From positions 30,931 through 94,930 of the forward strand of contig JAGCDH010000001.1 in NCBI GenBank assembly GCA_017651165.1: a stretch of 64,000 nt of DNA. The letters run 5' to 3'. Below the pieces are notes generated by a model. That model ran no database searches. It saw only the letters and a program-made list of their open reading frames with translations, and was not told the DNA's origin. Shown in pieces: positions 32,427-34,131 of the stretch; within the stretch, counting starts at the first letter, position 1, and the number at the start of each line of letters is the position of its first letter. This stretch comes from Bacilli bacterium. Lineage in GTDB: Bacteria > Bacillota_I > Bacilli_A > RFN20 > CAG-826. Position numbers and translations under genes: made by a program.

Positions 32427-33032
32427 TTAGAGCTTACGGTTGTAGTATTCAACGATTTGTGATTCGGTGATATCTTGTGGCAATTCTTTACGTTCGACTT
32501 CACGAATGTATTTACCAGATAACTTTTCCGCATCCACTTCGACCCAACCGACTTTTGTGCCGACTGTTTCGAGAGATTCTTTAATCACTTTGAGGTCTTT
32601 ACTATTTTCTCTGACACTCACGACATCACCAACGTTTAATAACGCGGATGGGATGTCTAACTTTTTGCCATTAACTTCGATGTGGCCGTGGTTGACGAGT
32701 TGTCTTGCGCCTCTTCTTGTTCTAGCGAAACCCATTCTGTAGACAAGATTGTCTAAACGGGATTCGAGTAACTTCATGAAAGCGACACCAGTGACTTCTT
32801 TACTACTTAAGGCAAGCATGAATAAGCGACGGAATTGTCTTTCGTTAACACCATACATTTGTCTTAATTTTTGTTTTTCGATCAATTGTTTGCCGTATTC
32901 AGAATTCTTTTTACGACGAGTGTTACCGTGTTGGCCTGGGCCATAAGGACGTTTCGCTAATTCTTTACTAGTTTCGAGTGTAGAAAAACCAAGTCTTCTT
33001 GATCTTTTCCAATCTGATCCTGTGTATCTCAT
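32427..33032 (-). CDS. rpsD: 30S ribosomal protein S4
   Basis: 201-aa primary 16S rRNA-binding protein. N-terminus RYTGSDWKRSRRLGFS, then YGPGQHGNTRRKKNSEYG, and the S4 RNA-binding domain with RLDNLVYRMGFARTRRGARQ and VNHGHIEVNGKKLDIPS. No zinc-binding cysteines (C-minus type). GGGAG precedes ATG. It has its own promoter and a structured 160-nt leader, as expected for S4 autoregulation. Confidence 0.98.
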   Translation of the reverse strand: MRYTGSDWKRSRRLGFSTLETSKELAKRPYGPGQHGNTRRKKNSEYGKQLIEKQKLRQMYGVNERQFRRLFMLALSSKEVTGVAFMKLLESRLDNLVYRMGFARTRRGARQLVNHGHIEVNGKKLDIPSALLNVGDVVSVRENSKDLKVIKESLETVGTKVGWVEVDAEKLSGKYIREVERKELPQDITESQIVEYYNRKL

Positions 33033-33039
33033 GTTCTTC

Positions 33040-33190
33040 TCCCTTCTTTATTTTTCTTTCGCAAAATAATGAATGGTGTGAATTCCTTTTCCCGGATGTT
33101 TGATTAATCTTTTCACCGTATAGCTTAGGTTACTTAGTCACAGCCGTATCAAACGTCGGACGGATTGTATTCACATGCTGCATTACATGC
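33040..33190 (-). promoter_or_regulatory. structured 5' leader of rpsD (probable S4 autoregulatory leader)
   Basis: Two nested long-range helices are visible on the minus strand: GTGAAT (33174-33169) with ATTCAC (33083-33078), and GTTTGAT (33154-33148) with ATCAAAC (33104-33098). A 5' hairpin built on TGCAT/ATGCA precedes them. Autogenous control of rpsD by S4 binding its leader is established in Bacillus; the same role is inferred here by position and structure, without a consensus match. Confidence 0.6.
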
Positions 33191-33197
33191 AGTTAAT

Positions 33198-33226
33198 AAT
33201 ATATAGAAAATCAATAAATCCGTCAA
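33198..33226 (-). promoter_or_regulatory. promoter of rpsD
   Basis: Minus-strand TTGACG (33226-33221), exactly 17 bp, then TATATT (33203-33198). The predicted start is near 33190. A perfect inverted repeat TCAACT-N4-AGTTGA (33223-33238) overlaps the -35. Confidence 0.7.
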
Positions 33227-33266
33227 CTAAAAAGTTGATAAAAGTGGTCAGCACATTTATATGGAT

Positions 33267-33290
33267 AAAAAAAGTGCCCTTTCGGACACT
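33267..33290 (-). terminator. terminator of the orphan RNA
   Basis: Minus-strand AGTGTCC-GAAA-GGGCACT (7 bp, one G-U) followed by T6-T7. Textbook intrinsic terminator with a GNRA loop. Confidence 0.85.
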
Positions 33291-33427
33291 GTTTCGTTAC
33301 CAACTAGGCCAGCGTAACCCTAGATCGCATTGTACCACCCTTGCGGGTGCGCCGTGGTCGTACGCTGACGTTACCTCACCGGAAGAAAATCTAACGGGAG
33401 AGGACGTACATCTCCACCCTTGGTAAC
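33267..33427 (-). ncRNA. orphan structured RNA, about 160 nt, unassigned family
   Basis: The region between rpsD and the next minus-strand ORF has no coding potential but a full transcription unit. An extended -10 promoter sits 7 bp before GTTACCAA (33427-33420), which pairs perfectly with TTGGTAAC (33303-33296) to close the molecule. Inside are a GGAGA/TCTCC hairpin, a CGTTA/TAACG helix and a long arm closed by CAGCGTA (33367-33361) with TACGCTG (33316-33310), which contains CACCC-GCAA-GGGTG (33349-33336). It ends in a strong terminator. It does not match my knowledge of SRP RNA, RNase P, tmRNA, 6S or riboswitch consensus. Confidence 0.65.
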
Positions 33428-33433
33428 AAAACT

Positions 33434-33461
33434 ATTATAACAACTATTAATCTAGTTGAAA
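33434..33461 (-). promoter_or_regulatory. promoter of the orphan RNA
   Basis: Minus-strand TTTCAA (33461-33456), 16 bp, TGT and perfect TATAAT (33439-33434). The start falls at the first base of the closing helix (33427). Confidence 0.7.
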
Positions 33462-33464
33462 TAA

Positions 33465-33840
33465 TTATTTGATGCTATCGGTGATAAATATGGTTTTTAT
33501 TGTTGCTTTGTTTGACTTATCAAATTCAATTTTCACTGAGATTTTAATAAACTGCTTTTGATAATTGTTTCTTTCGATATAAAAGTTATATGTATCTTTT
33601 CTTTCCTTATCTTTCTTGAAGATTGCCTTTTCAATCTTCTTAGGAATTCGCTTGATATCGCTAGGTTTTAAATCGTGTCTAGAATTAATTATGTGTTCAA
33701 TTCGACTCTCATTACTTCTCGCTCTATCGTTTTCAAGCACAATGACGATGCCGTGTTTTTTTATCTACCAATGGGGAAGGAAATGAATTCAATGCCGCAA
33801 TCATTTTCTCTTCATAAGTTGATTCTTTTTTCTTCGCCAT
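33465..33840 (-). pseudogene. frameshifted small ORF, toxin/nuclease-like
   Basis: From ATG 33840 a frame encodes MAKKKESTYEEKMIAALN and runs to DKK at an A7 tract (33762-33756 on the minus strand), then shifts. In the -1 base register the protein continues as HGIVIVLENDRARSNESR to the stop at 33465, 124 aa in all. Only the second part (91 codons, from GTG 33740) is open as it stands. The pattern RIEHIINSRHDLKPSDIKRIP resembles the C-terminal domains of phage/polymorphic-toxin nucleases (PBECR-like), but this is a weak guess. It may be a pseudogene, a sequencing error, or expressed by slippage on the A tract. Confidence 0.55.
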
Positions 33841-33890
33841 AAAGTGACTATATGTTAATGGTGATTATTGTCAGTTTCAACGATTATTTT

Positions 33891-33899
33891 TTATCCACA
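33891..33899 (+). promoter_or_regulatory. DnaA box (perfect TTATCCACA)
   Basis: Exact consensus match in a gene-free AT-rich stretch (33841-34187). A second near-match, TTTTCCACA, is at 33981-33989, with very AT-rich DNA between them. Two boxes are few for an origin, and no dnaA or dnaN is nearby. Confidence 0.5.
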
Positions 33900-33980
33900 A
33901 AAGTATCCCTATATTTATATTTAGTTATAACTGAAAGATATAAATAAATAGAAATAAATAATATAAATATTGGGATAAAG

Positions 33981-34034
33981 TTTTCCACATTTTTCTTGGT
34001 GGAAAATGAGACTTTTTTGGTTAATGTGAGACAT
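33981..34034. repeat. inverted repeat plus 20-bp-spaced direct repeats
   Basis: TTTTCCAC (33981-33988) and GTGGAAAA (33999-34006) are perfect inverted copies. TGAGAC occurs at 34007 and again 20 bp later at 34027, each followed by a T-rich run. The arrangement recalls the multiple end repeats of IS21-type elements, but no transposase is present. Origin unknown. Confidence 0.4.
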
Positions 34035-34131
34035 TTTGCATTTAAGCCGATGATATAGGCATCTTTATGAAATAGAAATATTTCGTAAAAACGCTTTTAT
34101 CTTGATTATAAAAATCGCTACAATATATGTG

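Follow-up and report, generated by a model that had tools for sequence, protein, structure and literature searches.

A recurrent, predicted double-pseudoknot RNA of uncultured Bacilli as the likely antitoxin of a probable RelE-like ribonuclease

The window analysed here is a 64,000-nt stretch of the genome of a Bacilli bacterium (GenBank assembly GCA_017651165.1, contig JAGCDH010000001.1, positions 30,931 to 94,930 of the forward strand). On its minus strand, at 33267-33427, it carries a predicted small RNA with two pseudoknots, which is likely the antitoxin of a probable RelE-like ribonuclease whose gene lies directly upstream on the same strand. What was established is an RNA family with covarying helices, flanks resembling promoters and terminators, a tight linkage to one protein family, and the rarity of toxin genes that lack the RNA. 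The RNA recurs in uncultured Bacilli, some of them from ruminant stomachs according to their record titles, and is covered by no Rfam model. A prior description of the RNA or of the module was not found in open-licence PubMed Central papers.

A DNA search of 59 genomes, the source genome included, gave matches in 3. When a conserved 18-base pattern was run over genome contigs, 51 stretches were found; the 17 that carried the remaining core were all labelled Erysipelotrichaceae, Bacillales or Bacilli. The long-form alignment comprised 19 distinct sequences, after a copy cut at the end of its locus (L048) and three duplicates had been dropped, and covariance model R1 was built from it. With filters that lose weak matches, R1 matched 67 of 279 genomes of the order, with up to seven copies per genome. 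The fetched stretches, searched again, gave 119 + 10 = 129 RNA matches in 109 sources, the window included; one match in locus L097 from the genome search was not recovered there. The 129 fell into three forms: long (28), short (about 90 nt; 74) and medium (about 137 nt, with an extra domain; 27). A -10 box of at least 5/6 was located within 30 nt upstream of 110 copies, at one shared position in 91 of them, and a terminator-like hairpin followed 121. The RNAs are mostly single copies of about 90-190 nt, with eight neighbouring pairs within 60 nt among the 129.

In the window, R1 matched 33297-33426 on the minus strand with 122.5 bits, the window sequence being itself among the 19 from which R1 was built. 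The features of the RNA and of the adjoining gene are as follows, in window positions.

33267..33427, minus strand: predicted RNA transcript (long form, core of about 130 nt plus terminator), from the R1 match and a fold z of -3.25
33434..33442, minus strand: extended -10 (TGT-TATAAT) of the RNA, from the sequence and the common -10 position among copies
33420..33427, minus strand: P1 5' strand GTTACCAA, pairs with 33296-33303; 7/7 pairs changed on both sides in the short form
33296..33303, minus strand: P1 3' strand TTGGTAAC, pairs with 33420-33427
33414..33417, minus strand: P2a 5' strand GTGG, pairs with CCAC at 33354-33357
33354..33357, minus strand: P2a 3' strand CCAC, pairs with GTGG at 33414-33417
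33363..33368, minus strand: P3 pseudoknot 5' strand TCAGCG, pairs with 33309-33314
33309..33314, minus strand: P3 pseudoknot 3' strand, pairs with 33363-33368
33336..33349, minus strand: P5 hairpin CACC...GGTG, from pair counting in long and short forms
33319..33323, minus strand: second pseudoknot helix, 5' strand CTAGG, pairs with 33304-33308
33304..33308, minus strand: second pseudoknot helix, 3' strand CCTAG, pairs with 33319-33323
33267..33290, minus strand: intrinsic terminator, 7-bp stem (33290-33273) and T tract (to 33267)
33465..33840, minus strand: partner toxin-family gene, frameshifted, with open frames 33465-33764 and 33733-33864
33847..33874, minus strand: promoter-like site (CTGACA, 16 nt, TATAGT) for the partner gene, whose ATG follows after 6 nt

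The TGT-TATAAT, P1, CAGCGTA/TACGCTG, the capped CACCC/GGGTG and the terminator, reported in an initial annotation, were all found on the minus strand. The -10 and the helix, which it had placed 7 bp apart, are separated by 6 nt (-10 box to P1), and CAGCG/CGCTG, listed there among the internal arms, does not nest with the other helices: it is one of the two pseudoknot helices. The GC content was 0.53 in the RNA and 0.33 in the 500-nt flanks, in agreement with the same annotation. The RNA strand (163 nt) folded at -60.1 kcal/mol (z -3.25), with 0 of 200 shuffles equally stable; the opposite strand of the locus also gave a stable fold (z -2.38). The -35 of the RNA promoter is poor, and a general promoter scan did not list this promoter; promoter-like sites in the 1.4-kb scan numbered 9 against a shuffle mean of 5.4. 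The terminator was the only terminator-like site in the 1.4 kb scanned, where shuffles gave a mean of 0.8, so by itself it is not above chance.

The pairing of TCAGCG with CGCTGA (P3) runs across P2, and the 3' strand of P3 is enclosed by a second helix, in which CCAGG pairs with CCTGG; because neither can nest with the other helices, the predicted structure contains two pseudoknots. Among the 19 long-form sequences 94.6% of pairs were standard and 10 of 37 pairs had changed on both sides. Covariation in this form was 0.182 against a shuffle mean of 0.088 (none of 500 shuffles reached it) and no more than 0.059 in slid versions, over which the structure is favoured, having been drawn from the same sequences. 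The short form (70 distinct sequences) has the same double pseudoknot, with 93.3% standard pairs, both-side changes in 21 of 25 pairs, and covariation of 0.428, where shuffles gave 0.206 (none of 500 as high) and slid versions no more than 0.147. In the long form, 96.5% of P3 cells were paired and 2 of its 6 pairs had changed on both sides; in the short form the values were 87.7% and 5 of 5. For the second helix they were 100% and 2 of 5 (long form) and 94.0% and 5 of 5 (short form). The alignments support both pseudoknot helices in the short form and, with fewer changes, in the long form. P2a is invariant in 19/19 long forms and therefore shows no covariation; it was paired in 98.6% of cells in the 70 short forms. 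Compensatory changes in the helices, which the initial annotation had named as the support to look for, were thus seen in homologues of both forms.

No Rfam model reached its gathering threshold anywhere in the window (cmscan), which bears out the description of an independent structured RNA unmatched by Rfam. A relaxed search of 33000-33600 (E <= 10) returned only Atu_C8 (E 3.9, mainly over the terminator) and sR44 (E 8.4, on the other strand), both at chance level. Membership in a known RNA family was rejected, the RNA being unmatched in relaxed searches of this stretch and of 11 further loci. The abiF motif RF03085 was unmatched in 33000-33600 (E <= 10) and in the loci of nine relatives (E <= 1).

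Clustering of the proteins encoded near the first loci gave one family, 25 proteins in 24 loci, on the same strand as the RNA; for 24 of the 25 the distance from the gene end to the RNA core motif downstream is 20-50 nt, and for the remaining one it is 172 nt. By profile search, a frame of this 125-aa family ended 12-42 nt upstream, on the same strand, in 60 of the 129 RNAs and 61-500 nt upstream in 13 more; it was downstream in 2, and none was found within 500 nt in 54 (five RNAs lacking an upstream partner have less than 400 nt of upstream sequence). Counted from the protein, 53 of 54 full-length toxin frames in RNA loci have the RNA 14-42 nt downstream, and the 54th (L097) has the match from the genome search 29 nt downstream. 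For other open reading frames (ORFs) of at least 80 aa in the same loci, the RNA was within 60 nt for 10 of 621. Across the 279 genomes, the toxin profile gave 69 matches in 51, a single gene sometimes being matched in several pieces; 65 of the 69 were in RNA-bearing loci. The other four were a 30-residue match (G231), two diverged full-length toxins (G020 and G202) with neighbouring weak RNA matches in an unfiltered R2 search (E 4.9e-4 just downstream; E 0.022 on the opposite strand), and a near-complete toxin (G168) that stops about five model positions early, in a genome whose other contig has the RNA (L174). Over 392 genomes of the phylum the profile gave matches in 9, each belonging to the own family. 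The RNA commonly occurs without the toxin but the toxin only rarely without the RNA, which is the asymmetry expected of an antidote.

Toxin and RNA distances were correlated over 49 pairs (r 0.69; 0 of 2000 permutations as high), a result that co-inheritance alone could produce; 7 of 8 toxin clusters had a single RNA form, and 48 of the 49 pairs had the majority form of their cluster. Close linkage and correlated divergence would suit any obligate RNA-protein pair, including a ribonucleoprotein effector (against phages, for example) in which the RNA serves the protein as a functional cofactor or guide instead of inhibiting it, and for a mere inhibitor the RNA is big and elaborate. However, the RNA is kept without the protein (54/129) and beside broken copies, while proteins without the RNA are rare, the reverse of what a cofactor would need; a variable spacer-like stretch was not seen in the alignments inspected, and a cofactor or guide is unlikely.

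The partner is a probable RelE-like ribonuclease toxin, as judged from its predicted fold, which resembled RelE and BrnT with modest Z in structure comparison. Residues R41, H49, H55, D61 and R90 of the toxin are invariant. Pfam (48 members, limit 0.1) gave weak matches to MuF_C in 10 (best 1.7e-5) and to PBECR3 in 6 (best 2.4e-4). ToxN, CptN and TenpN were not among the Pfam or structure matches listed, no direct comparison with them having been made. A PDB sequence search with the toxin profile gave nothing relevant (best E 0.3), seven proteins had no NCBIfam match below E 0.016, and PADLOC and PHROGs gave weak matches only (best IetA, E 0.0016, and phrog_21006, E 0.0032). Two points weigh against a toxin-antitoxin pair: only a minority of members have profile matches, and in G168 the RNA was not seen in the approximately 130 nt before the contig end. 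They lower our confidence slightly, to a level at which an antitoxin is still likely.

Other genes were also found before the RNA. Among RNAs without the 125-aa gene, one lies 22 nt behind the gene of a PBECR4 protein (E 7.3e-19). Another follows, at 6 nt, the gene of a YafQ toxin (E 2e-31), itself preceded by a helix-turn-helix protein gene. MuF_C-like genes lie 119-121 nt upstream of the RNA in L089, L097, L131, L134 and L160; the Pfam MuF_C match was above the cut-off for L097 (1.2e-6) and below it for L089 (2.3e-5) and L160 (7.4e-6), L131 was unmatched by Pfam, and identity to L097 is 90% for L131 and 94% for L134. Descent of the 125-aa family and the MuF_C-like partners from a common ancestor was considered and rejected: profile comparison found nothing, so the data do not support a single origin for all partners.

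These partners bear on whether the RNA is a stand-alone regulatory or housekeeping RNA, linked to the toxin by riding the same mobile or horizontally moved segment. Many copies are solitary beside unrelated genes, among the neighbours listed, copy number varies, and five same-genus genomes have an empty rpsD-ezrA site, as such an RNA would allow. The near-constant toxin spacing (14-42 nt in 53/54) and the copies behind other RelE/BECR-type genes make it improbable. We consider, tentatively and with the balance tipped slightly to the negative, a broader form of the antitoxin proposal: one double-pseudoknot RNA family with its own downstream promoter would neutralise several RelE/BECR-fold ribonucleases (the 125-aa family, PBECR4, MuF_C-type proteins and perhaps YafQ), the solitary copies would be anti-addiction antitoxins, and the whole would form a new toxin-antitoxin class. 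On this reading, RNA would serve as an interchangeable antidote to a toxin fold whose antitoxins have so far been proteins.

How the pair acts is something we infer, going further than the linkage, the structure and the predicted fold. The RNA would be made in excess from its own promoter and would bind the toxin directly and block it; when transcription falls, the RNA would decay first, and the toxin would cut cellular RNA. A Shine-Dalgarno-like motif was present for 1 of 49 toxin genes and 80 of 145 other ORFs, and a -10 box lay 4-12 nt before the ATG in 22 of 49 and 25 of 145, respectively. Because the motif is mostly missing and the -10 often close to the ATG, the toxin mRNA may be leaderless and only weakly translated. 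In one subgroup (e.g. L172, L177 and L186) an inverted repeat, AAGAC...GTCTT, lies between the -10-like box and the toxin ATG and is perhaps an operator. A small RNA adjoining a toxin gene could also be a type I antitoxin, which would base-pair with the toxin mRNA, but this RNA is encoded downstream on the toxin's own strand, and mean duplex energies over the 49 pairs were -28.99 kcal/mol with the cognate toxin start and -29.08 with non-cognate ones; since the RNA has no special complementarity to its own toxin start, antisense action is disfavoured, and a type I system is very improbable.

The RNA had been called an orphan. In the window, however, a same-strand gene of the toxin family stops 38 nt short of the RNA match, and intact relatives of this gene adjoin the RNA elsewhere. 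The window gene (E 1.0e-34 in the genome profile search) has stops inside, its frames 33465-33764 and 33733-33864 covering model positions 28-125 and 2-32. Unless an assembly error accounts for the frameshift, the window RNA may have become a solitary antitoxin, its toxin reading frame being interrupted. The same genome holds a second RNA copy, of the short form, behind a MuF_C-like gene.

The RNA shares its strand with rpsD and lies some 235 nt ahead of that gene, where a cis-regulatory leader (e.g. of rpsD) or a riboswitch might be placed. Its terminator precedes the rpsD promoter-like site, however, and homologues adjoin unrelated genes among the neighbours listed, positions that already contradict a leader. 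Of 16 genomes of the genus, 11 yielded rpsD, and in five, not counting the own genome, the fetched stretch also contained ezrA; R2 did not find the RNA at these five rpsD-ezrA loci, and a leader is hardly credible, as the initial annotation had held for rpsD. Its proposal to compare relatives at rpsD/ezrA did not lead to homologues, which lie elsewhere: the five genomes, with both genes readable, have no counterpart of approximately 33245 to 34060 between them. With the site empty of module and RNA, the module is most simply an accessory insertion at rpsD-ezrA. In three relatives (L261, L265 and L267) this site is occupied by other inserts, whose small ORFs are hydrophobic and apparently encode membrane proteins, and it looks like an insertion hot spot. 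Separately, the 160-215 nt or so directly upstream of rpsD (33033-33233) are 87-94.5% identical in the five same-genus genomes and gave no Rfam match; the stretch is a possible candidate for an rpsD leader.

The RNA would work like a type III antitoxin, but it departs from the classical families in gene order and repeat array. Under the general definition, a structured noncoding RNA lies beside a toxin gene, and this was found here, the toxin status of the partner being predicted. As in ToxIN, CptIN and TenpIN, a pseudoknotted RNA with a terminator adjoins the gene of a (here predicted) ribonuclease toxin, and some RNAs are tandem. ToxN has a PemK/MazF-like fold, whereas the toxin here resembles RelE in its predicted fold. 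A single large copy is mostly present here, unlike the short tandem repeat array of those systems. Their RNA precedes the toxin, with one shared promoter and a terminator between, as outlined in PMC5086642; here the RNA follows the toxin and has its own -10. In AbiF/RCd22, as far as described, the toxin is of the Abi_2/AbiD/F family, the RNA is upstream and co-transcribed, and abiF motifs measure about 33-35 nt; the present RNA does not match RF03085. In AvcID, a type III system, RNA antitoxin decay after transcription stops frees the toxin, according to PMC10511110; the decay proposed here is alike, and the AvcID toxin differs in being a deoxycytidylate deaminase.

The predicted fold of the partner resembles that of RelE/ParE type II toxins (RelE, YafQ, HigB, BrnT), and one RNA lies directly behind YafQ. 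RelE, YafQ, HigB and BrnT pair with protein antitoxins, and the RelE superfamily is one of the largest toxin families. Type II toxins of the RelE/ParE superfamily are presented as paired with protein antitoxins in PMC11980606, in the main text of which the terms 'type III' and 'RNA antitoxin' do not occur (term search). The toxin-linked candidate RNAs shown in PMC8040213 adjoin ToxN. If true, the antitoxin role would add an RNA-antitoxin branch to the RelE superfamily. The pseudoknotted RNA is well supported and its role is testable with two short genes; the solitary copies would offer a natural experiment on RNA antitoxins outliving their toxins.

Origin as a phage or plasmid element was rejected, three viral-contig matches of the 18-base pattern being without the rest of the core. 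The short-form pattern had no viral matches, and the few tblastn queries (one long-form toxin against phages, one short-form toxin against plasmids) were unmatched; with so few queries, mobile copies of the module are possible. Over 395 genomes of the class, R2 matched 8 of the own family (own genome included) and gave 3 weak matches elsewhere, two overlapping long ORFs and one, L237, resembling a diverged cousin. This diverged RNA (near 1501 of L237, R2 E 2.7e-5), from another family of the order, has a similar motif (GGTGGAAA...CGACCACGG); a toxin gene was not seen beside it. Tandem RNA copies behind one toxin gene, with spacers of 0-44 nt, were present in L158 (3032-3217), L090 (4693-4886) and L091 (5604-6015), those of L091 being of different forms. 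A T-box leader match at L229 4012-4201 (plus strand, 77.6 bits, E 8.9e-16, below the gathering score) lies close to the diverged module of G202. Two loci among those searched with Rfam contain three copies each of cow-rumen-1 RNA (RF02946), about 300 nt apart and within about 5 kb of the RNA:

L045 1669-2359, plus strand: cow-rumen-1 triplet
L137 3630-4321, plus strand: cow-rumen-1 triplet
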